Source: an uncultured Nitrospiraceae bacterium (GTDB lineage Bacteria > Nitrospirota > Thermodesulfovibrionia > Thermodesulfovibrionales > Dissulfurispiraceae). From it: a stretch of 64,000 bases of DNA. The translations under genes were made by a program, and so were the position numbers. Below the pieces are notes generated by a model. The model saw only the letters and a list, made by a program, of their open reading frames with translations. It made no database searches and was not told the origin of the DNA. Each line of letters starts with the position of its first letter. Position 1 is the stretch's first letter. The stretch spans positions 124,001-188,000 of the forward strand of contig CAIJNL010000014.1 in assembly GCA_903822005.1 (NCBI GenBank), in the 5' to 3' direction. Positions 42,451 to 56,900 of the stretch are shown piece by piece.

Positions 42451-43506
42451 CTATTTGCCGAAAGGGCAGACCGGATATGCGCAGGTCTTGCACTGCAGGC
42501 AGAGACCGCCATGCCCGAGCCCTGCAAGTTCCGCCCTGCCAACGCGTTCGCCCGCGAGTACCCGCGGAAGGACGAGGTCAAATATCGTGTTTTTGTGATA
42601 CATCCCGCATGCGGGTATACCGAGAATGGGTATGTTGTGATAGTACGCCACAAGGAACATGGCGCCGGGCAGTACGGCCGAGCCGTAAGTTATGTCCGAA
42701 GCGCCGAGGTTTCGGATGGCAAAACGGGTAACATCATCAGGATCGACCGACATCCCTCCAGTCGTTATAAGAAGGTTAGCCCCGCGGCCAATCAGTTCAC
42801 GCAAGGATGTCTCTATGACGGCCTCCGAGTCGGGCGCGTATGCAACACCCACGACCTCTCCGCCGAACGCCGCGATCTTCTCGCGGATAATGGGCGCAAA
42901 TGCGTCCGTAATACGGCCCGAACAGATCTCGTTGCCTGTGATTACAACACCCACGAGCGGACGCTGCATGGTCAGCACGGAGAGCACGCCCCCATCCGTC
43001 GCCGCAATCCTGACCGCGGAGTCTACAAGTTCTTTCTTTATCATCAGGGGAATCGCCCGCGTACCGGCGACCACGCGGCCTGACCTGACAACCGTGTTTG
43101 AATGGAGTGTTGCGCACATCACCTCGCCGAGCATGTTGAATTCGCGGAGCCTATCGGCATTTACCTTCAGGAGTCCGTCATGTTCAGCTATAAGATTGAT
43201 CTTGCCTTCACAAGGCACGCCCTGCATTGCAACGCCTTTGCCGCATAGGGCCGCGGCCATCAGGTATGCGGCCTCATCCTCATGCAGATCGTCGTCGGAC
43301 ATCTCCAGGACAAATATATGCTCCTTTCCCAGTCTCCTGAGATGGTCGATGTCTTCCTTCTTTATTATGTGGCCTTTCCTGAATGCGGAGCCCTTGGACC
43401 CGTCTTTTATTATCTCGGTGATGTCGTGACTCAGCACCATGCCGATCGCCTCGTTCACCGGTATCATGGCTGCGCCCTTGCTGACCCGCGTCGACGATTC
43501 ACACAT
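42451..43506 (-). CDS. molybdopterin-binding (MoCF) protein with C-terminal Cys cluster
   Basis: A 351-residue cytoplasmic protein. It has an N-terminal region with a MoeA-like IPVNEAIGMVLSHDITEII start and a central/C-terminal MoCF_biosynth domain (GVVITGNEICSGRITDAF, LLITTGGMSVDPDDVT, GIPACGMYH). The end is unusual: CLQCKTCAYPVCPFGK, a C-x2-C-x2-C-x4-C cluster that could hold a metal or Fe-S cluster. I start at the ATG at 43506, eight bases inside the FmdE-ModE gene. As the last gene of the molybdoenzyme operon it probably helps metal insertion or senses cofactor. Family resemblance to MoeA/CinA is clear, exact role is not. Confidence 0.82.
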   Translation of the reverse strand: MCESSTRVSKGAAMIPVNEAIGMVLSHDITEIIKDGSKGSAFRKGHIIKKEDIDHLRRLGKEHIFVLEMSDDDLHEDEAAYLMAAALCGKGVAMQGVPCEGKINLIAEHDGLLKVNADRLREFNMLGEVMCATLHSNTVVRSGRVVAGTRAIPLMIKKELVDSAVRIAATDGGVLSVLTMQRPLVGVVITGNEICSGRITDAFAPIIREKIAAFGGEVVGVAYAPDSEAVIETSLRELIGRGANLLITTGGMSVDPDDVTRFAIRNLGASDITYGSAVLPGAMFLVAYYHNIPILGIPACGMYHKNTIFDLVLPRVLAGERVGRAELAGLGHGGLCLQCKTCAYPVCPFGK

Positions 43507-44509
43507 TGAAAGCCCCCTTGTCTTTTTTTTCAAAGACCAGGGAAAAGCGTTTGTCGACCATTTCCCTGATCCCTGCATCAAGCTGTTCATACTTGTCGAG
43601 GAATGACCTTGCCTCGTCGGTCAGTAAAGCCCCGCCCCCGTCTTTGCCGCCCGTGCGCCTTTCGACGAGCTGAATACCGAGTCTCTCTTCCATGGCCTTG
43701 ATATAACTCCAGGCACGGCGGTAGGAGATCCTGACTTCCTGTGCCGCATGGTTAATCGAGCCGGTCGAACCTATAGCCTTCAACAGCAGCATCCTGCCCC
43801 TGCCGAAAACAGGCTCTCCGTCTATGTCGATCCATAGCTTGGACCGTATCTGCATTTCGTTATGACTATTCTGCATAGCGGTCGGCAAAGAAAAAGAATT
43901 CTCCTTCGGAATGGAAACCGCGCTGTAATATGTTCCCGACGCGCATGAATTGCATAACAATTTCCCGTCAATCAGCTTCTCGCGGTGGTCCTGCACATAT
44001 TCAGCGCACTCTTCGCACTGCACCCTGCTAAGCGGCCTTCCGGGCATGTCCTCGGGCCGTACCGTTATCGAGACCTCCATTACATCGAACAGCTCTTCAT
44101 CGCGCATTACTTTATATGCTTCCATCTGCGCAGCATACTTGTCAGTGATATGCGGCTTATACTCCCTGGCCTTGTCACGCGCATCTTCGCGGGCAACTAT
44201 GCGCACCGCCCTGCCTGTCTTGAGATTAAGATACGATACGGCCATCTTGCCGTAGTCAAGGAATTTCATGGTACGGTGGCCGAGTGTACATCCGGTAACA
44301 GACCGCACCGCGTCGGTCGCGCATCGGTCCATTTCAACAAAGACGATCAGCGACTTCCTGTCGTTGCCTGTCGGGTCGAAGATGCCTATCTCAGAGAGTC
44401 CCCTGATGGACATCCTTACTCCCAATACCTGCCCAGGACATAGATGCCCATGGGTCTGGGCTGACCCCTCAAGCAGAGTCTCAAAATCGAATTGCTTTTC
44501 TTTATTCAT
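43499..44509 (-). CDS. FmdE-domain / ModE-type HTH fusion protein
   Basis: A 336-residue fusion. Residues 1-150 form an FmdE-type domain (HGHLCPGQVLGVRM with His20, His22 and Cys24 as likely metal ligands; Cys in MDRCATDAV and VTGCTLGHRT). Residues 165-195 form a zinc ribbon (CEEC and CNSC). The C-terminal ~110 residues are a ModE-type winged helix (GRGRMLLLKAIGSTGSINHAAQ, SYRRAWSYIKAMEERLG). No TOBE molybdate domain is present. It lies between the reductase genes and a molybdopterin-binding protein, so a sensor of molybdenum, or of its delivery, that controls transcription is a reasonable inference. Confidence 0.85.
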   Translation of the reverse strand: MNKEKQFDFETLLEGSAQTHGHLCPGQVLGVRMSIRGLSEIGIFDPTGNDRKSLIVFVEMDRCATDAVRSVTGCTLGHRTMKFLDYGKMAVSYLNLKTGRAVRIVAREDARDKAREYKPHITDKYAAQMEAYKVMRDEELFDVMEVSITVRPEDMPGRPLSRVQCEECAEYVQDHREKLIDGKLLCNSCASGTYYSAVSIPKENSFSLPTAMQNSHNEMQIRSKLWIDIDGEPVFGRGRMLLLKAIGSTGSINHAAQEVRISYRRAWSYIKAMEERLGIQLVERRTGGKDGGGALLTDEARSFLDKYEQLDAGIREMVDKRFSLVFEKKDKGAFNV

Positions 44510-44557: not shown

Positions 44558-45586
44558 CTATTTTTTCTTCTCCTCTATATGGCACTTTACGCATTCGGTT
44601 GAAGCGAAGGCCTTCTTGTCATTGTGGCAGGTGCCGCACGATTTGCCCGCATACATAGTATCCATCTTCATCTTCACGCTGCTCTTTTTCATCTTCCAGA
44701 TACCGTCGTGGCAGTCGCTGCATTTAGCTCTTGCCGTATGACTCTGATGGCTGAAGGTCACGGGGTCCGAGTCTCCCGACTTATACACTATAGACACTTT
44801 CGGGTAAAGGTCTGGCGCGTCGCGGTGGCACGCGGTGCAGTCATTGTCCTTGGGCGGGTTTTTCCCTTCCTTGCGTTTTACGTCATGACAAGAAAAACAG
44901 ATCGGCATGCTCGACCTGTAGCCAGTTATGCCGTTATGCGCGATCTTTGCATGGCAATCTACGCAGTTGAAGCCCATTTCGCAATGTTTTTTATGGTTGG
45001 GATCAATTTTAGTTTCCGGCCTGATCCCTTCCGCGAGGATGTCCCTGAGCCCGTGTTTTTTTCTGAATTCAGGATTAACAACGCCGTCGATGGTCCTGAA
45101 TGAGACGCCGACCGTCATAAGCCTCTCTTCACGGATCTTTTTGTTCTGGGCATCGGTATGGCAGAAGAGGCAGATGTCATTCTTTACCAGCTTTGCCGCG
45201 TAGACCGGATCATCAGCTTTCTTCAGGACATGCATTATATGTTCCTTGCTGTGTGTTGCCTGCGCCCAGACGTCCGCCAGGCCGCCTATCTTGGCCCGCA
45301 TGTACCCTGTAAATCCGGGCTCCGCGTGGCAGTCCACGCAGGCGACCTTTGCCGCAGCATGTTTGGATTTTTCCCAGCTCGCCACTTCTCCAAAAGGACC
45401 GGGCTGGTCGGAAGGATGACACTTTTTGCAGAACTGGGGGTCTGTAGTATAATGAAGCACCTCGACGCTCGCGAAGACAAATATTCCGAATGCAGCAATA
45501 ATAACCAGCACTGTCAGTTTAGGGTGCTTTTTAATAGTGCCAGTTACCTTTTTAATACCTGCTTTCAGACCACTTATCAGCGACAT
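44558..45586 (-). CDS. nonaheme membrane cytochrome c (NapC/NirT-like plus c7-like)
   Basis: A 342-residue protein with one N-terminal membrane anchor (about 23-43) and nine CXXCH motifs, starting at residues 53, 83, 139, 208, 230, 250, 289, 317 and 332. The first part resembles the NapC/NirT quinol-oxidising family (four hemes); the last three or four CXXCH with HQSHTA resemble a cytochrome c7/c3 module. I infer that it takes electrons from menaquinol and passes them along its own heme chain to the reductase. GGGAGG precedes the ATG. There is a 151-nt gap with a hairpin after the molybdoenzyme gene. Confidence 0.88.
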   Translation of the reverse strand: MSLISGLKAGIKKVTGTIKKHPKLTVLVIIAAFGIFVFASVEVLHYTTDPQFCKKCHPSDQPGPFGEVASWEKSKHAAAKVACVDCHAEPGFTGYMRAKIGGLADVWAQATHSKEHIMHVLKKADDPVYAAKLVKNDICLFCHTDAQNKKIREERLMTVGVSFRTIDGVVNPEFRKKHGLRDILAEGIRPETKIDPNHKKHCEMGFNCVDCHAKIAHNGITGYRSSMPICFSCHDVKRKEGKNPPKDNDCTACHRDAPDLYPKVSIVYKSGDSDPVTFSHQSHTARAKCSDCHDGIWKMKKSSVKMKMDTMYAGKSCGTCHNDKKAFASTECVKCHIEEKKK

Positions 45587-45737: not shown

Positions 45738-48700
45738 TCAGATTTTGACCAGTTTTATCTTTGTGTCATAAAACGACACGCTGCCGCCAACCGGATCGAG
45801 CATGCATGTGTTCTTCAGATAAGGGTCAACCCACATGGCGGCATTGGCATGAATGCCGGTGGCACGGCGGGCATCGCCCTTTACGACCTTGTTGTCGATT
45901 GTTACATCCGCAGACCCTGTGGCCCAGTGCCCATGGCCAAGCGTAAATGAAATAACACCAGGCTTCATTATCTCGGTCACCTTGACCTTGCCTGCAACGT
46001 CCTTCTTGGTCCCGTTCCTGAGGTCCCAGACGCCCTCCTTGTTCGTAGCAGAGACCACCTTCACGAGATCGCCGTCCTTCAGCTTCAGCGCCTTGGCGTC
46101 CTTGCCGTTCAGCAAGACATAATTCTCAGGCTGGACAGCCAGTATCCAGTAATTGGTAACCGTCCGCGACTTGGTGTGGAGTATGTCCTTGTGCGTAAGC
46201 AGATGGAGGGGATAGCCATCCTCGAGCCCACTCTCCTTTGGCGTTTTGCCCATTGTCGTGGTAACCGGAACATAGGAGGCATAACCCGTATTCTGCTTAC
46301 CTGTAAATGCATTCTTTGTGCCGGCGGTTTTCTCCTGATAAAGGTTGATGAGTTTGCCGTACTTGTTGCTTACCTGATCGCCCTTGTACATGTCCTTGTA
46401 ATCCTGGAAGCGGCCTCCGCGGTTCAGCACATATACGACCTTGCGCCAGTTCGCCCCGGCTATCTTCTGCCAGCGTTCGGGATCAAAGATCGTTTTCGGA
46501 AGATGCTTGCGCGAATCCATGAAGAGTTGCAGCTCTTTATCATCGGCATCAGGAACCGGAGACCCGTCTGTAGCAACGTTCGCCACCATCCTGATGTAGA
46601 AATCGTCAGGCCTCGCCAATGGCTGGCCCGGACCGAAGCCGTCTGCGCCGTAACCCTTTATCCCGAGCTGTTCGGCAATAGCAAGCATTACAGATTCGTA
46701 ACAGCAGGGCTGCTCTTCGCCGAAGACCTTTACGGTCTCGGTCATCGGGGCGATCACAGGCTGGCGGATCGGCTGCACCTTTGCCGGCATATTCGGATGC
46801 GACCCCTGCATCTCCCAGCGTTCGAGATAGCTGAAGTCAGGGAATATATAGTCGGCATACATGGTGGTCGTGCCTATCAGTATATCGGTCGTGAAATAGA
46901 GAGGCACCTTGTTAACATCTGCCAGTATCTCAATGTTGGTCTGACCGGCCGGCAGAGAATACCCTGGAGTACCCATGTAACTGAATACCGCCTTTATGGG
47001 GTACGGATAAGCGTCGCCCATTGATGGAATGATCTCCTCATAGACATCACTCGCAATCGGCCACCAGTTGCGCTTTGCAGGATAACCCGCAAACAGGGTC
47101 GTATCCTCATATTTCACGTCGTGGCGGATCGAACTGATGCCGAAACGGTTCGTCTTACCGGGCTTGAGCTTGTTAAGATCAAAAGGCTGTCCCTCTTTGC
47201 CGCCCATCGTATTATACGTTGAGGCCGAAATCATGCCGCCTTTCCAGTCGAAGTTGCCGAGCAGCAGGTTGACTGTCATGGCGGAGGTCACATTATAGAA
47301 ACCGTTTGTATGCTGGGCAATCCCGCGATGCACATCAACCACAGCCTTTTTGCCGTATTTCGAAAGCTCCATTGCGGTCTGCTCAATGTCCTTCACACTG
47401 ATACCGCTGATCTTGGACCACTCGGCCATCGTCTTGGAGTTTGCAGACTCTGCCACGATCTGGAGTGCGCTTTTTATCTTGATACCTTTTATCTCAGTAT
47501 TGACAAGCAGATCTCCGGTTACCGCATTCTTGTCGTCATTCGGATCAACAGCAACAGGCTTGCCGTCTTTCATCACAATGAGGTACTCGAAGTCATGCTC
47601 CCTTCCGTCTTTGTCTTTGCGCTTCTCGGCCTTTGCTATGCCGATCTCCTGCCCACGCAGGAATTTACCCGGCTTGCCATCTTTGTCCAATCTGACCAGC
47701 AGAGGCGCATTGGACCAGGTCGCCTCTCCCGCGGCCTTGGCAGCTGCCTTGTTCGCGGCGGCAAGATATTTGGCGTCATATTTTTTGTTTTTTATCAGCC
47801 ACTGTATCAGTCCCGCGAAGAACGCCGCGTCGGTGCCTGGATTGATAGGCAAGTAGCGGTTGGCCTTTGAGGCCGATTTATTCAGTATCGGATCAACCAC
47901 TGTCAGCTTTGTCTTTCCGCTTACGAGATTGGGCATAAGACGCGCGTTCCGGTTCGAAGGGCCGTAGTTCGCATCGAACAGATTGGAGCCTACCGAAAGG
48001 ATATACTCCGCGTTCTCTGTGTCTGCCTGCCAGTAGAATTTCTGGCCGCCGCCAAACTTGTTGTATTCGTACTGTTCGCTAAGCGCTTTGCAGGTAAAAT
48101 AGAGCGAACCCTGGCAGACAGTCGTATGGCCATGCGTATTGACCGTGCCGAGGTAGTCGTTGAAGAAGCGCAGGGAGAAGTCGCTCCTGCCTCCCTTTTT
48201 CCTTCCCCAGAAATATAGCATCTGGTTGTTCTTGGGACCAAGGTCAGGATGGTCGGGGTCTATCATGTACTGCATATAGTCCGCGTATTTCGTCTTGAAT
48301 TCGGCTATCGCGGCCTTCCTGTCCTTTGCCTTCATCACAGCATTCGTTCCGTCAGAAAGCTCTTTGGCTATCTTCGCGTCGCGCAGTACATAGATGTCCT
48401 TTAGGCCGGTCACCATGCGGTTCTCTTCTCCCGGCACACTGGCAAACAGCGTTCCGCCGTTTACGATCTCATTGATCGCAGTGTCAAAAGGAACAGTCGC
48501 CCATTTGTTTTCGCCGCGCTTTCCGGCGCGTTTCAGCACCTTTGTTATGCGGTACGGATCGTATACAGTCTGTATGCCTGACTGTCCCTTGGGGCAGATC
48601 GCCATGTCAACGGTGTTCAGATCAAACGGCGAAGACTTGTAAGGCATATGAGGCACTGCCACAAAAGGATTGTAGGCGTTGCCGTCCACCTTCAACGCAA

Positions 48701-48959
48701 CCGCCTTGCCGTTGTTCCGGAAGAACTTTACCTTTATGCCGCAGCCGGTATTGCACTGCAGGCAGACAGTATAAAGCGTATTCTCGGCCTTTATAAGTTC
48801 GTATTCTTCTTCAGGCGTCAGCATGCCGGCCTCGGCCCTCTTCATAAGATCGGTCGCCCACTCAAACTGCGAGGCGAGCATTGCTCCGCCGAGCACAGCA
48901 GAACACTTCATGAAATCTCTGCGGTTGAGACCTTTTTCTTCTTTATCTTTGTTTTGCAT
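45738..48959 (-). CDS. Tat-exported molybdopterin oxidoreductase, tetrathionate-reductase-A-like
   Basis: A 1073-residue DMSO-reductase-family catalytic subunit. A twin-arginine signal (NRRDFMKCSAVLGGAML) sends it folded to the periplasm. The 4Fe-4S site is Cys66, Cys69, Cys73 and Cys122 (CLQCNTGC ... ICPKG). The likely Mo-ligating residue is Cys282 (HTTVCQGS). Length and the long inserts match TtrA and related sulfur/selenium/arsenic oxyanion reductases more than NarG, NapA or PsrA. Partners in the operon are a TtrB-like ferredoxin and two multiheme cytochromes; no TtrC is present. The substrate (tetrathionate, thiosulfate, selenate, arsenate or other) is not determined. Confidence 0.88.
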   Translation of the reverse strand: MQNKDKEEKGLNRRDFMKCSAVLGGAMLASQFEWATDLMKRAEAGMLTPEEEYELIKAENTLYTVCLQCNTGCGIKVKFFRNNGKAVALKVDGNAYNPFVAVPHMPYKSSPFDLNTVDMAICPKGQSGIQTVYDPYRITKVLKRAGKRGENKWATVPFDTAINEIVNGGTLFASVPGEENRMVTGLKDIYVLRDAKIAKELSDGTNAVMKAKDRKAAIAEFKTKYADYMQYMIDPDHPDLGPKNNQMLYFWGRKKGGRSDFSLRFFNDYLGTVNTHGHTTVCQGSLYFTCKALSEQYEYNKFGGGQKFYWQADTENAEYILSVGSNLFDANYGPSNRNARLMPNLVSGKTKLTVVDPILNKSASKANRYLPINPGTDAAFFAGLIQWLIKNKKYDAKYLAAANKAAAKAAGEATWSNAPLLVRLDKDGKPGKFLRGQEIGIAKAEKRKDKDGREHDFEYLIVMKDGKPVAVDPNDDKNAVTGDLLVNTEIKGIKIKSALQIVAESANSKTMAEWSKISGISVKDIEQTAMELSKYGKKAVVDVHRGIAQHTNGFYNVTSAMTVNLLLGNFDWKGGMISASTYNTMGGKEGQPFDLNKLKPGKTNRFGISSIRHDVKYEDTTLFAGYPAKRNWWPIASDVYEEIIPSMGDAYPYPIKAVFSYMGTPGYSLPAGQTNIEILADVNKVPLYFTTDILIGTTTMYADYIFPDFSYLERWEMQGSHPNMPAKVQPIRQPVIAPMTETVKVFGEEQPCCYESVMLAIAEQLGIKGYGADGFGPGQPLARPDDFYIRMVANVATDGSPVPDADDKELQLFMDSRKHLPKTIFDPERWQKIAGANWRKVVYVLNRGGRFQDYKDMYKGDQVSNKYGKLINLYQEKTAGTKNAFTGKQNTGYASYVPVTTTMGKTPKESGLEDGYPLHLLTHKDILHTKSRTVTNYWILAVQPENYVLLNGKDAKALKLKDGDLVKVVSATNKEGVWDLRNGTKKDVAGKVKVTEIMKPGVISFTLGHGHWATGSADVTIDNKVVKGDARRATGIHANAAMWVDPYLKNTCMLDPVGGSVSFYDTKIKLVKI

Positions 48960-48973
48960 TTCTCTCGCCTCCT

Positions 48974-49801
48974 TTATGACAGAATATAATAGACCCGCGG
49001 TTTGGTCGGTGCGGATTCGCCGAACACCGGCAGTTTGCCCGGATAGCCTACTCGGGCCGAAAGCGCTTCAGGACTCGCGGCTGACTTGCCTTTCTTGGCG
49101 CCGCCCTTAACTGATGACATCAGCCTTGTCCTGTTCTGCTTCATGACCTTCGCTATCAGACTTTCAGGGTCGCTGGTATCGCCAAAATAATTTGCGCGGC
49201 ATACGCAGGTGCTTACACACATCGGCACCATGCCCTGTTTGAGCCTGTGTAAACAGAAGTGACATTTACGGGCAGTACCTATCGGAAGTTCTGGTTTGTT
49301 TCGCGGCCATTTTGTGCCGTATTCCAGGTTCGGGGTCTTTTCGTATTCCTGTACCGCTGGGGTGTTGTCCGTATAAAACGCACCTGAATCGAGACCGCGC
49401 GCCTTATACGGGCAAGCAGTAACGCATTTTCCGCAGCCTATGCATTCCGTGTAATTGATCATGACGATACTGTTCGATAATCCTTTAGTGCTTTTCCAGG
49501 TCGCCTTGCCCTCGCCCTTATTCGGGCAGACTGCCACGCAGGGCGGGTTGTCGCACTGTTGGCACGGCCTCGGAGTAAAGCGGCGCTTAACCTTCGGGAA
49601 TGTCCCGCTTTCTTCGTCGTAAACCGGGCGGTAGATTATGCCCGGAGGGCTCTTCTGTTCAGCAATGCAGCCTGCTGTGCAGGCCTTGCACGAAGTGCAG
49701 CGCCTGAGGTCTATAAGCATCGCCCATTTCGGCGTCTTGTTTTTGATGGCACGCCTTATGTCCTCCTGGATGACAGTTAATTCGTCCTTGCCGTTATACA
49801 T
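48974..49801 (-). CDS. 4Fe-4S electron-transfer subunit (TtrB/DmsB-like)
   Basis: A 275-residue protein with the four-cluster Cys pattern of DmsB/TtrB subunits: CTSCKACTAGC, CQQCDNPPCVAVC, CIGCGKCVTACPYKA and CHFCLHRL with a later CVSTC. It should link the cytochromes to the molybdoenzyme's own cluster. It has no Tat signal of its own, so it probably crosses the membrane bound to the Tat-tagged catalytic subunit. The start is ATG at 49801 with GAGGAGGA upstream. It begins 15 nt after the triheme cytochrome stop and ends 14 nt before the catalytic gene. Confidence 0.93.
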   Translation of the reverse strand: MYNGKDELTVIQEDIRRAIKNKTPKWAMLIDLRRCTSCKACTAGCIAEQKSPPGIIYRPVYDEESGTFPKVKRRFTPRPCQQCDNPPCVAVCPNKGEGKATWKSTKGLSNSIVMINYTECIGCGKCVTACPYKARGLDSGAFYTDNTPAVQEYEKTPNLEYGTKWPRNKPELPIGTARKCHFCLHRLKQGMVPMCVSTCVCRANYFGDTSDPESLIAKVMKQNRTRLMSSVKGGAKKGKSAASPEALSARVGYPGKLPVFGESAPTKPRVYYILS

Positions 49802-49816
49802 CAAATGTCCTCCTCA

Positions 49817-50122
49817 TTAGTTCTTGTGGCAGGTTTTGCAATTTCCTTTTACGGTAAATGCCTGCTTGCCGTTATGGCATACGCCGCAGGACTGCCCCTT
49901 TCCCATTTCTGCCATCGATACTTTATTGTGTTTTGTTTTTGTCACATAGATCGAATCATGACAATCCATGCACTGCTTCCCCATTCCGACATGAGTGTCA
50001 TGGCTGAACGTGACCTTGCCGGCAGACTTTGGCTCGAATTGAACATCGCCCCCGCCGACCACTGCATAAACGAAAGACGCGGTCATCAGTAACGCCAATA
50101 ATACGGATAAGGCTTTCTTCAT
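49817..50122 (-). CDS. periplasmic triheme cytochrome c7-family protein
   Basis: A 101-residue protein with a Sec signal peptide (about 1-20, cleavage near VYAVVG) and three CXXCH motifs at 51, 79 and 95. The VTFSHDTH segment supplies distal His ligands, as in class III (c3/c7) cytochromes. It is the first gene of the molybdoenzyme operon and probably shuttles electrons in the periplasm. I start at MKKALSV (50122), about 7 nt after AAGGGG; an upstream GTG or similar codon would add 29 residues without signal-peptide character. Confidence 0.92.
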   Translation of the reverse strand: MKKALSVLLALLMTASFVYAVVGGGDVQFEPKSAGKVTFSHDTHVGMGKQCMDCHDSIYVTKTKHNKVSMAEMGKGQSCGVCHNGKQAFTVKGNCKTCHKN

Positions 50123-50263
50123 ATCCCGACCCCTTCCTCTTAAAATGATTTTGATGCCGTTTGTTCCATCTACACGAATGCACCTACCGGCCCCCGCCAG
50201 CAGATGCATTCATAAATCCCGGCCATAGGCCGAACAAAAGCTACTCCCTCCGCTAAAACTTAT

Positions 50264-50280
50264 TACAACTTCCATGCCAG
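50264..50280 (-). promoter_or_regulatory. sigma-54 promoter of the molybdoenzyme operon
   Basis: On the minus strand, CTGGCATGGAAGTTGTA matches the sigma-54 consensus: TGGCA at -24, TTG at -12 at exactly the right spacing, with the final C replaced by T. Transcription would start near 50253, giving a leader of about 130 nt. An NtrC-family activator gene lies directly upstream. Confidence 0.65.
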
Positions 50281-50318
50281 ATTCAATTCATTGATTTTGA
50301 TGGATTTTAGAGGAGTAG

Positions 50319-50340
50319 AGTGTTACCACGCAGTAACACT
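50319..50340. promoter_or_regulatory. palindromic activator site 1 (GTGTTAC-N6-GTAACAC)
   Basis: AGTGTTAC, six-base spacer, GTAACACT: an 8-bp perfect inverted repeat centred about 76 bp upstream of the expected sigma-54 start. It shares the GTTAC core with site 2 at 50409. The placement is typical of enhancer sites for NtrC-type activators. Confidence 0.65.
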
Positions 50341-50408
50341 CATATGCATGGGCTAGTTAACAAATTGATAATTCAGGATTTAAAACGAGGGGGGCAAATA
50401 TCCGACTT

Positions 50409-50424
50409 GTTACCGAATGGTAAC
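50409..50424. promoter_or_regulatory. palindromic activator site 2 (GTTACC-N4-GGTAAC)
   Basis: GTTACC, GAAT, GGTAAC, centred about 163 bp upstream of the expected start and 87 bp (roughly eight helical turns) from site 1. It sits 20 bases from the end of the activator gene. Confidence 0.6.
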
Positions 50425-50443: not shown

Positions 50444-51781
50444 CTATTCAATGCCGTAAGAATTGATCTTTTCCCATAGATTCTTTCTGCTTATGCCAAG
50501 CAATTCCGCAGCCTTTGTCTTGTTCCCACCGGCTGTCCTCAGAACATTCAGGATATGTGCCTTTTCGGCATCAGCCGCCACATCAGAAAGAGATAGGCTT
50601 TTTGCGGCACCCGCAGCCGTTGATATAAATGGAGGGAGCCCGTCCCTGTCTATCACCTCTGTCGTTGAGAGGGTTACCGAGCGTTCTATGATGTTTTCGA
50701 GTTCTCTTATGTTCCCGGGATATTTATATGCCAGCAGGTCGTCTGCGGCCTCTATCGAAAAACGAACATTCTTCGCGCTCTTTTTCCTGTATTTATCCAT
50801 GAAGTATTCAATAAGGCAGGGAATGTCTTCTCTCCTTTCGCGCAAGGGCGGAAGAGTAATAGGAATTACGTTGAGCCGGTAATAGAGATCTTCCCTGAAC
50901 CTGCCGGCCTTCATCTCCTCTTCAAGGTCCCTGTTGGTAGCCGCTATGATCCGCACATCCGTACTCAGCGTCGCAGTGCCGCCGATCCTCTCGAACTGTC
51001 TCTCCTGAATTACCCTGAGGATCTTGGACTGGGTCGATAGCGGCAGATCACCTATCTCATCGAGAAAGATGGTCCCACCGCCCGCAAGTTCAAATCTGCC
51101 GGGCTTTCTCTTTATGGCCCCTGTAAACGCGCCCTTCTCATGTCCGAAAAGTTCACTCTCTATCAACCCCTCCGGCAGGGCCGCGCAGTTGACCTTGATT
51201 AACGGCCTGTCCCTGCGGCTGCTCAGGTAATGGATGGTCGCGGCCGCGAGCTCTTTGCCTGTACCGCTCTCACCCAGAATAAGTACGGTTGAATCCGACG
51301 CGGAGACCATTTCAATAAGCGAGAGCACCTTTTTGATCTCGGCGCTCTCACCGATGATATTGGAAGGACTGTAATACCTGTTCAGGTCTTTCTTCAGCCT
51401 GATATTTTCTTCCTTCAACTTCCTGATCTCGAGTGCCCTCTCGACCAGCAGCAGGAACTCATCCATGGCAAACGGCTTGGTTATATAATCAAAGGCACCG
51501 AGTTTCATTGCTTCAACGGCATCCTTGATAGTGCCGTAGGCCGTCATCATGATAACCGGAACATCCCGCCGTTTAGTTATCTCCCTGACAATATCAAATC
51601 CGTCCATGTCAGGCAGTCTTACGTCCGTTATGGCCATGTCAAAAGAACCGTATTTAATATCATTCATGGCTCCTTCGCCGGTTTCGTGGGACATGACCTC
51701 ATACCCAGCCTCTTTTAACGCGTCTTCAATGGTAACTCGCATTATCTTCTCATCTTCTATAAGCAGGATGTTTTCTTTCAT
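50444..51781 (-). CDS. NtrC-family sigma-54-dependent response regulator
   Basis: A 445-residue activator: receiver domain with Asp in AITDVRLPDMDG, AAA+ domain with Walker A GESGTGKE, GAFTGA loop and Walker B IFLDEIGD, and C-terminal Fis-type helix-turn-helix (GNKTKAAELLGISRKNLWEKI). It overlaps the kinase gene by 4 nt. Given its place just upstream of a sigma-54 promoter with two palindromes, it is the likely activator of the molybdoenzyme operon. Confidence 0.95.
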   Translation of the reverse strand: MKENILLIEDEKIMRVTIEDALKEAGYEVMSHETGEGAMNDIKYGSFDMAITDVRLPDMDGFDIVREITKRRDVPVIMMTAYGTIKDAVEAMKLGAFDYITKPFAMDEFLLLVERALEIRKLKEENIRLKKDLNRYYSPSNIIGESAEIKKVLSLIEMVSASDSTVLILGESGTGKELAAATIHYLSSRRDRPLIKVNCAALPEGLIESELFGHEKGAFTGAIKRKPGRFELAGGGTIFLDEIGDLPLSTQSKILRVIQERQFERIGGTATLSTDVRIIAATNRDLEEEMKAGRFREDLYYRLNVIPITLPPLRERREDIPCLIEYFMDKYRKKSAKNVRFSIEAADDLLAYKYPGNIRELENIIERSVTLSTTEVIDRDGLPPFISTAAGAAKSLSLSDVAADAEKAHILNVLRTAGGNKTKAAELLGISRKNLWEKINSYGIE

Positions 51782-53250
51782 GTATTCCTTACGTCCGGAA
51801 AACGCATGCCGAATCTGCTGCCCTTGCCGACCTCGCTCTCCACAGATATTTCACCATTGTAGTTTCTGACAATCTCATAGGTCAACCAGAGCCCGAGTCC
51901 GGTGCCTTCGCCAGTGGGCCGCGTTGTAAAGAAAGGGTCGAACACCTTTCCGATATTTTCCTCTTCAATGCCGCACCCGTTGTCGATGACCTCGATCAAA
52001 GTCGCGGAACCCTCTCTGCTGCCCCTGACCTCGAGGGTGCCTCCATTCTTCATTGCATGGATCGCGTTTATAAACAGATTCAGCAGCAGCTGCTGAAAAT
52101 CATGCAGATCAAAGACAAAACGCAGGCCATCCGGAATCTCATTCCTGAAGATGATCTTTCCGGTTTTGACCTTGTGTTCCACGAACAGGTAGACACTGTC
52201 GACCGCGCTCCTTATATTAACATCAACCGGCTCGTGTTCCTCTTTCCGCGACATCCAGAGCAGCTTGCTGACAGTATTTTCGATCCGCTCCAATCCCTCA
52301 TGCACCAGCTCCAGATATTTCCCCCGTAACTGCTGATTGCCGCCCTTTTGCCTGAGTATACCGATGCAGTTGAATATGCCTCCAAGCGGATTGTTGATCT
52401 CATGGGCAACGCCCGCCGCAAGTATACCTATGGTTGCAAGTTTTTCAGACCGGACAAGGTTATCGTGTGTTTTTTTCAGCTCCTCATTTGCCTGCCTTAT
52501 CCTCTCGATCATGCTGTTGAATCTTTCTCCAAGGACAGCAAGCTCATCATTGCCGTTCACTTCCACCTTGATATCCAGATAGTCTCCTCGCGCCTTCTCC
52601 ATGGTATTCGCAAGGTTGGTAATGGGGCTTATGAAGCGCCGGCTCAAAAGCAGTATCAGCCCGAAACCGACGCAGACAAAAGTTATTGTCAGCCCGATGA
52701 TGGTCGCAATGGTCGCAAAGATTTCATTTTCGGCCTTTTCGAGGGATATCCCGAATTTCAGGGTCCCCCATCTTTTCTTGCCGATCAGCAGCGGTATTCC
52801 GAAATCCAGCGCCCCGTGCCCCCTGTCCTGAATCTGCTGAACAATAGTGCCCTCCGCACCAAGGGCCTTTTGGGTCAGTGGATCGTCGTATATTTTGCCG
52901 TATTCAGTAATATTATTGTGTGAAATGACCTTTCCCCTGTCGTCCAGTATGGCGATATAGAGAAGGCCCGTGTCCTGCCTGTTGAAGATCTCTACGATAT
53001 AGTTGTCGAGAAGACCGCCTTCTTCCACCAGGCCGAGCCTCTCGTAAATGAGATCATTTATTATCGGGATGGCGAGGGTCTCCCCGAAAAGGCGGCCCTG
53101 CTTTTCGACTTCAGCATAAAGTATCTTCTTTTCTCTCTCGACCGCGAGGTATCCGACCATGCCCATGATCGCAACGATCCCGCAGGTGGTGATCAGTATG
53201 AATTTATACCGCAGGTTAAGCTTAGAAAAAAATCTGCCGGTCCAGTTCAT
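51778..53250 (-). CDS. membrane sensor histidine kinase of the PhnD-HK-NtrC operon
   Basis: A 490-residue kinase: TM1 (about 15-33), a periplasmic single-Cache-like domain (about 35-170), TM2 (about 185-205), HAMP, a DHp with GVAHEINNPLGGIFN, and HATPase (NLFINAIHAMKN, DNGCGI, FDPFFTT, GTGLGLWLTY). Both ends overlap neighbouring genes by 4 nt (ATGA), so binding protein, kinase and regulator are made together. It could receive the signal from the periplasmic PhnD-like protein encoded upstream. Confidence 0.94.
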   Translation of the reverse strand: MNWTGRFFSKLNLRYKFILITTCGIVAIMGMVGYLAVEREKKILYAEVEKQGRLFGETLAIPIINDLIYERLGLVEEGGLLDNYIVEIFNRQDTGLLYIAILDDRGKVISHNNITEYGKIYDDPLTQKALGAEGTIVQQIQDRGHGALDFGIPLLIGKKRWGTLKFGISLEKAENEIFATIATIIGLTITFVCVGFGLILLLSRRFISPITNLANTMEKARGDYLDIKVEVNGNDELAVLGERFNSMIERIRQANEELKKTHDNLVRSEKLATIGILAAGVAHEINNPLGGIFNCIGILRQKGGNQQLRGKYLELVHEGLERIENTVSKLLWMSRKEEHEPVDVNIRSAVDSVYLFVEHKVKTGKIIFRNEIPDGLRFVFDLHDFQQLLLNLFINAIHAMKNGGTLEVRGSREGSATLIEVIDNGCGIEEENIGKVFDPFFTTRPTGEGTGLGLWLTYEIVRNYNGEISVESEVGKGSRFGMRFPDVRNT

Positions 53251-54959
53251 AATTTTATCTTTGGGTGGCAGCCCCGACCGCAGGTCTGCGGCACTGCATT
53301 GATCTTTGCTCTTATGTCCTCATAATCTTTGTCACCCGCCTCGACAAAACCGTTTTTATAGTCTTCATCAAGACGCCTCAGAATGTTCCGGCTCTCTTCG
53401 GAACGCGGGTCGAGTTCGAGAAGCGCCTTTTTTATGTTCTGAACGAGGGAAGCCGGAGTGCCTTTACCCGCAACCAGAGGCCCGTTCGGAACAGGGCCTG
53501 ATTCGGCTACTATCTCTATGCCAAGCTTCACATATTTTCTCGCAACCGAATCTCTTACCGCCCCGGCCGCGTATTGTCCCTTCAAAACGGCCTTTACAAC
53601 CGAATCGTGATAACTGAAATTATTGAAACTGCTGAGGTCACTGAGATGTATCCCTGCATTCGCAAGAAGATACCGCGGTATAAGGTTCCCTGACGTGGAC
53701 TGCGTTGAGGAAAAGGCGACACTCTTACCTTTCAGGTCTGCGAGGGTCCTGACCGGCGAGTCTTTCTTTTTTATGATCACGCTTTTGTATGACGCGCTTC
53801 CGTCAGCTCCTTTAGGCTTCAGTATGCCTTTCACGCCGTATCTCTTATGGGCTTCGAGGTATGTCAATGGGCCGAGCAGCGCCATGTCCATTTCGCCGCT
53901 TCCGACCGCGCTGACCGTCTCCTTGTAATTCTTTTTCAGGACAAGTTCGTACTTGTACGGCGTCTTTGTCGCAAGATAGTCGAGCAGAGGCTGATAGCGT
54001 TCGTACATGATCCTCGGGTTGTCGCGAGGGATGACCCCGAAATATACGGTATTGCCTTCTTTGGCTTTCTTTGTGATCTTTGCACTTGCAGTGATAGAGC
54101 GTTCCATCGCCCTGATGGCGTCATAATTACTGTCCGGAACCTCTGTAAAGCCGTCGATCATCATTGCACTAAGGATCGCCTTGCCCCTTTCCGTTTTATG
54201 CATATTGAGAAAGGCTTCCCTCGTTTTTTTCCTGATGATCGGATCGATATCAGTCGTGACAACAACAGGAGGGATTCCATACGGCGGTGAACGCTTGATG
54301 ATCTTTGTCTGCACCGCGTAAGGAGACCCTGTCTTCAGCATATGGTCGTAAACGATACTGTCAACCGCGGCCCCGTCCGCTATTTTCTTGGCCACCATTT
54401 CTACCGATTTGTTATGACTATAACTGTAAAAAAAGCTCTGAAAAAAACGTTCCGGAGTGTATCCCATGGTCTTCAGCAGATAGTCGGGATAGAGCTTGCC
54501 GGTGTTTGACCTGGGATCCATAAATGCAAACACCTTCCCCTTCAGTTCGGGGAAAGATTTGGTCTGGTTGTCTTTATGGACGATTATATAGGAATGATAA
54601 TGCGTGCTCCCAAGGACAACAGGGGCGACGAGAAGTTCATTGCCGAACTGCTCACGGTTCTTGACATACTGCCCCGAACAGACAAAGGCTATCTTTACTT
54701 CTCCTTTCTCGAGCAGAGAGTCCATTTCTTCATACGTCCTTCTATGGACCATCTGCACCGGCATGCCAATCTGTACCCCGATATAATCAATAAAATCCTG
54801 GTAATATTTGACCGAATCAACCGGGGTGATCATCGAGGAGACGCCGATCTTGACCACGCTCCCCGTTTCGGAATAGACTTCACCCGGAAAGCATGCGGGG
54901 AAAACAGCAGGGAAAAACAGTAATGCCGCAACCAGCAGAGATTTTATCCTTATAGACAT
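53247..54959 (-). CDS. tandem PhnD-type periplasmic binding protein (likely signal receptor)
   Basis: A 570-residue exported protein with two successive PhnD-type oxyanion-binding modules (about 35-290 and 310-540). Each has the GVSSM/GVIPR start and the DLKGK(V)AF plus S.TSGNL or SNTGKL anion-loop motifs. A signal peptide occupies the first ~30 residues; a Cys at FPACFPG might be a weak lipobox. The C-terminus ends TCGRGCHPKIKL, a CX3CH motif (Cys560, Cys564, His565). No ABC permease or ATPase is nearby; instead the gene overlaps a histidine kinase. TtrS carries a PhnD-like domain fused to its kinase, so this looks like a split version. Confidence 0.85.
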   Translation of the reverse strand: MSIRIKSLLVAALLFFPAVFPACFPGEVYSETGSVVKIGVSSMITPVDSVKYYQDFIDYIGVQIGMPVQMVHRRTYEEMDSLLEKGEVKIAFVCSGQYVKNREQFGNELLVAPVVLGSTHYHSYIIVHKDNQTKSFPELKGKVFAFMDPRSNTGKLYPDYLLKTMGYTPERFFQSFFYSYSHNKSVEMVAKKIADGAAVDSIVYDHMLKTGSPYAVQTKIIKRSPPYGIPPVVVTTDIDPIIRKKTREAFLNMHKTERGKAILSAMMIDGFTEVPDSNYDAIRAMERSITASAKITKKAKEGNTVYFGVIPRDNPRIMYERYQPLLDYLATKTPYKYELVLKKNYKETVSAVGSGEMDMALLGPLTYLEAHKRYGVKGILKPKGADGSASYKSVIIKKKDSPVRTLADLKGKSVAFSSTQSTSGNLIPRYLLANAGIHLSDLSSFNNFSYHDSVVKAVLKGQYAAGAVRDSVARKYVKLGIEIVAESGPVPNGPLVAGKGTPASLVQNIKKALLELDPRSEESRNILRRLDEDYKNGFVEAGDKDYEDIRAKINAVPQTCGRGCHPKIKL

Positions 54960-55094: not shown

Positions 55095-56735
55095 CTATTT
55101 GGCCGCAGTGGCCGGAGTCATGGCATCATTAAGCAGCTTGATGCCTTTTTGGGATGCGTCAATAGAGCGCGCAAGCGCCTCTCTCGCAGCATCCGGATTG
55201 TGGAATCCGTCAGAGTTTTCGGCGGTCCACCATTCCCAGTAAGTATGGGCAACATCGTGGAGCTTCCTTGCCTCGTTAAGGGTCACTTCAGAAACTCCCC
55301 TGGACTTCGCCTTTGCAAACGCGTCGATGAACTGCCCGAGCCAGAATTCGGCCTTGGTCATCTTGCCCTTGATATAATTCTGGATCGCGTCGACCTGGTA
55401 TTCGGCTTCCTTGGCCGTCCAGTACGGATGGCACTTCACGCAGGTGTCTTTCAGCATATACCTTGCGCTCTTCTGGCCATGCCAGGTGTAGGACTTGGAG
55501 CCCTTCTTGACCCTGGGCATATGACAATCTTTGCACTCTACGCCGGCCTTCTCGTGCTTGCTTCCCCAGAAAGATTCGGTATCGGGGTGCTGGAGCTTTG
55601 AGAGCGCCGCACCTGTGGTTGCATGCCTGAAGTCCTTGTACTTCTGGTCAGCCATTTTTTTGTTGTAATCGAATACATTGACCCACGAAAAGAAATTCGT
55701 TACCTGGTTGTCCATGCCTACCGGCTTTCCGGTTTCGGTGTTGATGCCCGGATTGCAGGTGTACTCGACATGGCACTGGGCGCAGAGCAATACAGAGTCG
55801 GGTTTATTAAGCACACCGATTGCCCTGAAACCGTCCCGGAACGTCACCTTCTTCATGGTTATCTTCTTCGACTTTTCCTTATCGTACGGGTAGGTGCCCT
55901 CTCCGCGGTCCACTACTGCCTGAATAAGGGCATCCCTGACCACCCTGGGCTGGGTCGAGTGCGGGTCATGGCAGGTGAAACAGTTCATAGGATGGGACAT
56001 CTTTCTGGCAAATTCAACTACCTTTGATGTGCGGTCCCATTTGGCCCTCGGGTCCTTGTCACCCATGTATTTCCAGTCGAGTATCATGTCCTGGGTCTTG
56101 CACTGGAAGCAGACGGGGTTGGCAGCGGTAGCGGTCTGTGGTAAAAAAGCCTTCTGGTCAGAAGAGGCCGGATCTTTGTCTATCAATGTTGACCAGAGAT
56201 TCTTTTCAGCGCCCTTGGCATCTCCTATTTCTTTCCAATCCTTTAGCTGGAAGCGTCCGCCGTAAGCCCTGTCGACTATGAGATGGTCCATCAGCATAAA
56301 GACGTGGCTCCTAGGTTCGGCATGCTCCTTGGTAAACCCGTGCGGCATCAACAGCTTGTCGAATAGCGGTGACCTGCTCTTGAAAGTCGCCTTTTCCACC
56401 TTGGCCCTCGAATCGATGTCAACAGATACGAGCGATTCATATTCTTCCTTGTGGCATTTGCCGCAGGTGGCAAGGTCCATCTTTGTTACGGGTTTGCTCG
56501 AAACATCCTTGAGATGATTATTAAGACCTTCGTGGCAGGTACTGCAGTTGACCTTTGCATGCTTGCCGCTGCTGTGGAACTCCTTGATATCAGAGTGGCA
56601 GTCGTAGCATTGGCCGACCTTTACCGGCTTGTCAGCCGGCGCCCCTTTCTGGGCATCGGCAGGGGAAAAATAGAGCCCTCCTGCTATGACCATAATGAAG
56701 GCCGCTGCAAACGACAGAAACAGCTTTTTGCTCAT
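55095..56735 (-). CDS. onr: octaheme cytochrome c nitrite reductase
   Basis: A 546-residue periplasmic protein with a signal peptide (about 1-28) and eight c-heme motifs at residues 43, 64, 91, 209, 252, 318, 401 and 432. The fourth is CFQCK, placing Lys213 as proximal ligand of the catalytic heme. CAQCHVEYTC gives the active-site Tyr325 two residues before Cys327, the pair that is cross-linked in the Thioalkalivibrio octaheme enzyme (TvNiR), and LQHP supplies Gln/His. The family reduces nitrite to ammonia and can also reduce sulfite. The ATG at 56735 follows GGGAGG; a GTG two codons upstream is less likely. It is a single gene, upstream of the regulatory operon on the same strand. Confidence 0.9.
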   Translation of the reverse strand: MSKKLFLSFAAAFIMVIAGGLYFSPADAQKGAPADKPVKVGQCYDCHSDIKEFHSSGKHAKVNCSTCHEGLNNHLKDVSSKPVTKMDLATCGKCHKEEYESLVSVDIDSRAKVEKATFKSRSPLFDKLLMPHGFTKEHAEPRSHVFMLMDHLIVDRAYGGRFQLKDWKEIGDAKGAEKNLWSTLIDKDPASSDQKAFLPQTATAANPVCFQCKTQDMILDWKYMGDKDPRAKWDRTSKVVEFARKMSHPMNCFTCHDPHSTQPRVVRDALIQAVVDRGEGTYPYDKEKSKKITMKKVTFRDGFRAIGVLNKPDSVLLCAQCHVEYTCNPGINTETGKPVGMDNQVTNFFSWVNVFDYNKKMADQKYKDFRHATTGAALSKLQHPDTESFWGSKHEKAGVECKDCHMPRVKKGSKSYTWHGQKSARYMLKDTCVKCHPYWTAKEAEYQVDAIQNYIKGKMTKAEFWLGQFIDAFAKAKSRGVSEVTLNEARKLHDVAHTYWEWWTAENSDGFHNPDAAREALARSIDASQKGIKLLNDAMTPATAAK

Positions 56736-56900
56736 ATACACCTCCCTTCAAAGAATAAGTAAACTTAAGAATTCCGAGAGTATACTGAACCTTCTCCTCC
56801 TCCCGTATTTCTAAAATATTCATACTATAACATGACTCAATATGCTTATAAAATCGTCCTGTTTCAGGGAAAGTCTTACTGAAATGGCATGTATAATTTG

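Follow-up and report, generated by a model that had tools for sequence, protein, structure and literature searches.

Paired activator boxes, an IHF-like site and a sigma-54 promoter upstream of a Nitrospirota molybdoenzyme operon, and their probable control by a system of the AioXSR/ArxXSR/ArrXSR type

The AioXSR and ArxXSR three-component systems are already known to act on a sigma-54 promoter through boxes of the AioR type. For AioR itself the box takes the form GTTN10AAC, footprinted as GTTCGGATTTCCGAAC (PMC5335332). The pocket of AioX comprises Y88, C106, Y131, S161, S163, H192 and D210, and the regulator ArrR of Chrysiogenes is CitB-like, without an AAA+ domain (PMC5908839). The region described here lies in a stretch of 64,000 nucleotides from an uncultured Nitrospiraceae bacterium, the whole of which is referred to as the window, and very probably controls a respiratory operon with a molybdoenzyme, under a three-component system of the AioXSR/ArxXSR/ArrXSR type. 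The receptor, kinase and activator genes are located upstream of the target operon and are co-directional with it, and the genes of the locus are as follows:

53247 to 54959, minus strand: two-domain periplasmic binding protein, the proposed signal receptor, with an N-domain of ArrX/AioX type and a PtxB/PhnD-like C-domain
51778 to 53250, minus strand: membrane sensor histidine kinase (sCache, HAMP, HisKA, HATPase_c)
50444 to 51781, minus strand: NtrC-type sigma-54 activator with a receiver, an AAA+ domain with GAFTGA and a Fis-type HTH (recognition helix ISRKNLWEK)
49817 to 50122, minus strand: triheme cytochrome c7, the first gene of the target operon
48974 to 49804, minus strand: iron-sulphur electron-transfer subunit (TtrB/ArrB/DsrO-like)
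45738 to 48959, minus strand: catalytic molybdopterin subunit of 1073 aa, with a TAT signal
44558 to 45586, minus strand: NrfH/NapC-like plus c7-type multiheme cytochrome
43499 to 44509, minus strand: FmdE-domain protein fused to a ModE-type HTH
42451 to 43590, minus strand: MoeA-like molybdenum cofactor protein

The receiver, GAFTGA-bearing AAA+ and Fis-type HTH domains bear out the original prediction that the gene adjoining the promoter encodes an NtrC-type activator. The MoeA-like gene and the FmdE-ModE fusion gene overlap by 92 bp, and homologues of FmdE, ModE-type proteins and MoeA recur in many operons linked to the same regulatory genes, as separate genes in some genomes. A multiheme cytochrome c552/NrfA-like gene (55095-56741) is situated directly upstream of the receptor gene. 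The gene order periplasmic binding protein-kinase-NtrC-type regulator (hereafter the module) is kept in about 50 genomes, from which the binding-protein regions were drawn; relatives of the binding protein were sought in 395 genomes of the phylum, and those of the reductase in named genomes.

The N-domain of the receptor matches solved ArrX chains (E=5e-47) and AioX (E=8e-38), and its C-domain matches PtxB/HtxB/PhnD. All seven pocket positions of AioX are kept in the window, as YCYSTHD with Thr for Ser163, which places the N-domain in the AioX/ArrX subfamily. The pattern Y-C-Y-S-[ST]-H-[DE], with Asp or Glu at 210, is present in the window and in 56 of 61 module-locus matches. The receptor is not a single-domain X protein, having 570 aa and two binding-protein domains, and the system is therefore best filed as a variant, rather than a plain member, of AioXSR/ArxXSR/ArrXSR. 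The regulator itself is one of 27 AAA+ activators of the NtrC class encoded in the genome. Its full-length identity is 39% to AioR and up to 46% to other activators of its own genome. The recognition helix LGI[ST]R[KT]xLWEK unites the module regulators with the AioR of NT-26 and with two regulators encoded at Arx-type plasmid loci; hardly any of the other 26 activators of the window genome has it. In a phylogenetic tree the module regulators formed a single clade (99/99) that excluded the genome's other activators and lay in a polytomy with the AioR/ArxR clade (100/100), a topology that neither joins the regulator to AioR nor separates the two. Taken from sequence comparison, the evidence supports the view that the module probably belongs with oxyanion sensing systems of the AioXSR/ArxXSR/ArrXSR type.

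The nearest NCBIfam model to the catalytic subunit is TtrA, at 430 bits against the NF011567 cut-off of 1750, and the match to ArrA (NF041714) is 98 bits against a cut-off of 1600, so that the subunit falls short of both assignments. No true ArrA above the cut-off is encoded in the window genome; the ArrA-type proteins of relatives also lie below 1600, at 1016-1140 bits. The subunit belongs to a widespread TtrA-like reductase family, of which about 80 relatives were found. In relatives, the same module and promoter precede at least five molybdoenzyme families (ArrA, PhsA-like, two TtrA-like families and the window's own): the module stands before ArrA at 12 loci, PhsA-like enzymes at eight, one TtrA-like family at six and the window's TtrA-like family at four, the window included, as well as before an L172-type enzyme (three loci) and an L177-type enzyme (one). 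One sensor, regulator and promoter layout before at least five enzyme families indicates that regulator and enzyme have been mixed and matched in evolution. In addition, ArrX/AioX-type receptors with the full pocket are encoded near relatives of the window reductase outside the module, for example in Carboxydocella (L073), Geobacter sp. OR-1 (L087) and Methanoperedens (L099). These associations with the module and with ArrX/AioX-type receptors suggest that the reductase probably handles an oxyanion of the arsenic or antimony type. An antimonate reductase, AnrA, has reportedly been described from Geobacter sp. SVR, and the window reductase may be AnrA or close to it.

The architecture could be right and the signal a different one, a possibility of appreciable, if lower than even, probability. 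The receptor may sense phosphate, phosphite or a sulphur or selenium oxyanion, and the reductase could then act, for instance, on tetrathionate or selenate. The PtxB/PhnD-like C-domain of the receptor is consistent with such a signal, as is the weak binding of phosphate by ArrX (PMC5908839). Conversely, the pocket is kept, including the equivalent of AioX Cys106, the module precedes true ArrA at its 12 loci, and ArrX/AioX-type proteins occur near relatives of the reductase in several other lineages, all of which argues for an arsenic- or antimony-type signal.

The control region lies between the activator gene and the cytochrome c7 gene, with these elements:

50409 to 50424, minus strand: distal activator box GTTACCATTCGGTAAC (read as GTTACCGAATGGTAAC), predicted upstream activating sequence 1
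50322 to 50337, minus strand: proximal activator box GTTACTGCGTGGTAAC (read as GTTACCACGCAGTAAC), predicted upstream activating sequence 2
50284 to 50296, minus strand: IHF-like site AATCAATGAATTG (WATCAANNNNTTR), 17 bp upstream of the T of TGGCA
50264 to 50280, minus strand: sigma-54 -24/-12 promoter CTGGCATGGAAGTTGTA, with its core TGGCATGGAAGTTGTA at 50279-50264
50253, minus strand: predicted transcription start, placed 12 bases past the -12 position

On the minus strand the ntrC stop is followed after 19 bp by GTTACCATTCGGTAAC, with 87 bp to the start of GTTACTGCGTGGTAAC and a further 58 bp to the start of TGGCATGGAAGTTGTA. Both boxes are 16-bp inverted repeats of the form GTTN10AAC upstream of the promoter, as for the AioR box. 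The original prediction had placed two GTTAC...GTAAC inverted repeats about 76 and 163 bp upstream of the start and 87 bp apart, and had noted the -24/-12 spacing of a sigma-54 promoter; both observations hold, the box centres lying at about -76 and -163 relative to 50253. The proximal palindrome is longer than first described, with perfect 9-bp arms GAGTGTTAC and GTAACACTC at 50318-50326 and 50333-50341. The promoter, TGGCA-N6-TTGTA, has GG at -24 and the correct 10-bp spacing, and differs by one mismatch from TGGCAYGN4TTGCW, TTGTA replacing the usual TTGCW; the resulting GT rather than GC at -12 is a variant present in relatives too. A single RpoN is encoded in the genome (TIGR02395, 430 bits, above the cut-off).

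A classic arrangement places IHF between the sites of an activator and a sigma-54 promoter, and here WATCAANNNNTTR is located between the proximal box and the promoter. Alignment of promoters on the -24 element revealed added conservation 5-18 bases upstream, and an IHF-like W-W-TCAA-N4-TT-R was present at -17/-18 in 16 of 33 aligned promoters (simulated mean 0.23), with the strict IHF consensus in nine of the 33, the window among them. IHF-alpha is encoded in the genome, above the cut-off, and IHF-beta is probable, just under it. Between the predicted start and the cytochrome c7 gene, the predicted 5' leader, which folds at -49 kcal/mol (z = -4.6), contains a 19-bp RNA hairpin (50173-50214, minus strand); this hairpin is present in a single copy in the genome and is without an Rfam family. 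An Rfam search of the region returned one sub-threshold miRNA match, which was put down to chance.

Neither the promoter nor a box is significant when taken singly. The sigma-54 consensus alone was found at 20 sites with up to two mismatches in the window, against 22.5 expected. A whole-genome pattern search found exact GTTAC-N6-GTAAC twice in the 3,231,892-bp genome, both copies at this site, and the reversed-pattern control gave five matches in the same sequence. One box alone is not enriched genome-wide over its control. The looser GTTNC-N6-GNAAC was likewise not above chance, with 32 matches against 35 in the control. As the expected count for one exact box is not small, the pairing weighs more than either box, and significance resides in the joint layout of box, 87 bp, box, 58 bp and promoter, through which the sigma-54 site itself becomes significant. 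Three genomes of one genus of the order (G134, G150 and G381) carry 12-18 exact GTTAC-N6-GTAAC each, mostly single, against a control of two; this excess possibly represents sites of a different regulator.

The joint layout is conserved in step with the module. In an unbiased scan of all 5-mers with gaps of 0-20, GTTAC-N6-GTAAC was the top palindrome behind ntrC, at 28 of 50 module loci, the next independent palindrome reaching five. At least one box with nine or more of ten matches was found behind ntrC at 33 of the 50 loci (simulated mean 0.41, maximum 2, in 100 runs). Two boxes and a promoter occur together at 29 loci; the proximal box is 56-59 bp from the promoter at 23 of them (58 in the window) and the gap between boxes is 86-94 bp at 22 (87 in the window). 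The locus whose reductase is 75% identical (L036) repeats the spacing of the window, with 87 bp between two exact boxes and a promoter 58 bp on. The GTTAC/GTAAC arms are kept across relatives, the inner six bases vary, and the second box is often GTTTC-N6-GTAAC. Deviant spacings were also seen, of 167/36 bp (L042) and 32/66 bp (L080). No box was present within 600 bp behind ntrC at 17 of the 50 module loci; several of these have one before another operon, and for some none was found before other operons either.

In 2.15 Mb of collected locus sequence the full layout was found at 37 places, among which are a few overlapping loci and one place entered twice with alternative first boxes; the reversed sequence gave none. 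Across the whole phylum, the strict layout pattern gave 20 matches in 19 of 395 genomes, with none in the reversed control. The conservation of the palindromes in relatives, on which the original prediction had been staked, is therefore borne out. Eighteen of the 19 genomes carry the module, the exception being an 88% complete assembly (Fisher p ~3e-16, a value that overstates independence because the genomes are related). A stronger argument than the p-value is that the geometry has stayed fixed while the intergenic DNA around it has diverged. Nearly all module-linked enzyme loci have boxes and reductase loci without the module mostly lack them, indicating that the boxes follow the regulator and not the enzyme.

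The layout is not confined to the region behind ntrC. It is found before molybdoenzyme operons kilobases from ntrC at six loci (L142, L150, L151, L155, L157 and L173) and also at an operon away from ntrC at L141. At L033 about 25 kb separate the module from the reductase operon, yet the layout is located upstream of that operon; a further copy lies at position 1140 of the same locus, about 8.9 kb upstream of the reductase. At L141, L150 and L151 a copy of the layout, the second or the first, precedes operons encoding a methyl-accepting chemotaxis protein and periplasmic binding proteins, which suggests that oxyanion chemotaxis belongs to the same regulon and recalls the control of mcp by AioR in Agrobacterium GW4 (PMC5335332).

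It is quite improbable that the palindromes are operators of another DNA-binding protein, for example of the ArsR, MerR or TetR type, that lie near ntrC by chance. Palindromes of 5-6-5 form do serve many regulator families, and in Thiomonas the ArsR-type AioF acts next to AioR (PMC7533571). Nevertheless, the presence of the XSR module in 18 of the 19 full-layout genomes, the box-to-promoter distance of 56-59 bp at 23 of 29 loci and the match of box and recognition helix to AioR/ArxR systems all favour the module's own regulator. More improbable still, and rejected, is a reading in which the inverted repeats bind no protein and instead terminate ntrC transcription or form hairpins at its 3' end: the perfect 9-bp arms of the proximal repeat and the start of the distal one 19 bp behind the stop would suit it, but no T run follows the repeats, the arms are kept across relatives whose inner six bases differ, and box pairs also precede operons away from ntrC at a fixed distance from a sigma-54 promoter, the distant operons, that of L033 included, excluding a simple 3'-end feature.

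Control by the module's own regulator can be set out as a sequence of events. The receptor (53247-54959) would bind an oxyanion of the arsenate, arsenite or antimonate kind and activate the kinase (51778-53250), which would phosphorylate the NtrC-type activator (50444-51781). Activator dimers would then bind the two GTTAC-N6-GTAAC boxes and IHF would bend the DNA at 50284-50296, allowing the assembled AAA+ ring to contact sigma-54 RNA polymerase at 50264-50280. Transcription would begin near 50253 and proceed through cytochrome c7, the FeS subunit, the TtrA-like catalytic subunit and the cytochrome, and then FmdE-ModE and MoeA. The comparative data support the proposal that the adjacent activator would bind both palindromes and drive the operon from the sigma-54 promoter, and a guess from sequence has thereby been turned into a precise regulatory model. 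A broader and more tentative proposal, with somewhat less than an even chance of holding, is that the reductase represents an arsenate/antimonate respiratory family, neither ArrA nor ArxA, under a conserved oxyanion module whose box-box-IHF-sigma-54 promoter marks oxyanion-respiration operons across Nitrospirota. If that is true, the promoter could be used to find oxyanion reductases without enzyme homology. The occurrence of one layout before at least five enzyme families also allows oxyanion substrates to be assigned from the promoter to molybdoenzymes that are uncharacterised. The substrate of the TtrA-like reductase family is, moreover, made directly testable.

Among described systems, AioXSR-aioBA of Pseudorhizobium NT-26 and Agrobacterium shares with the window the order X-S-R followed by a box, a sigma-54 promoter and a molybdoenzyme operon, together with the 16-bp GTTN10AAC box geometry, the AioX-type pocket, a closely similar recognition helix (ISRTTLWEK in NT-26 AioR) and a MoeA/Glp-type gene within the operon. 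In contrast to the two GTTAC...GTAAC boxes with their fixed 87/58 spacing, the NT-26 box is GTTCG...CGAAC and stands 67 bp from the promoter; the window further differs from AioXSR in its tandem two-domain receptor and in an enzyme that is TtrA-like and not AioA. The plasmid loci of Azoarcus KH32C and Sulfuricella denitrificans, which from their annotation are read as ArxXSR-arx loci, also have X-S-R beside a molybdoenzyme operon, with exact GTTAC-N6-GTAAC boxes (GTTACGCCGACGTAAC and GTTACCTTCCGGTAAC, respectively) and the recognition helices ITRKTLWEK and ITRKNLWEK. They differ in a divergent arrangement, a single-domain X, other spacing and a different molybdoenzyme of 2.6-2.8 kb. For ArrX with ArrA, as in Chrysiogenes arsenatis, the likeness lies in the N-domain of the window receptor, which is closest to the solved ArrX chains, and in the 12 related loci where the module precedes true ArrA, whereas the window genome is without an ArrA above the cut-off and its activator is NtrC-type, unlike the CitB-like ArrR. 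The TtrA system resembles the locus in that TtrA is the NCBIfam model closest to the catalytic subunit and the FeS partner is TtrB-type, but the 430 bits are far from the cut-off of 1750 and the electron partners in the window are c7/NrfH-type cytochromes. Control of the AioR/ArxR type is extended into Nitrospirota and some other lineages. As far as open papers show, what is new is the fixed-spacing layout of two boxes and an IHF-like site, its distribution across the phylum, a receptor with two domains and the replacement of one enzyme by another behind the same switch.
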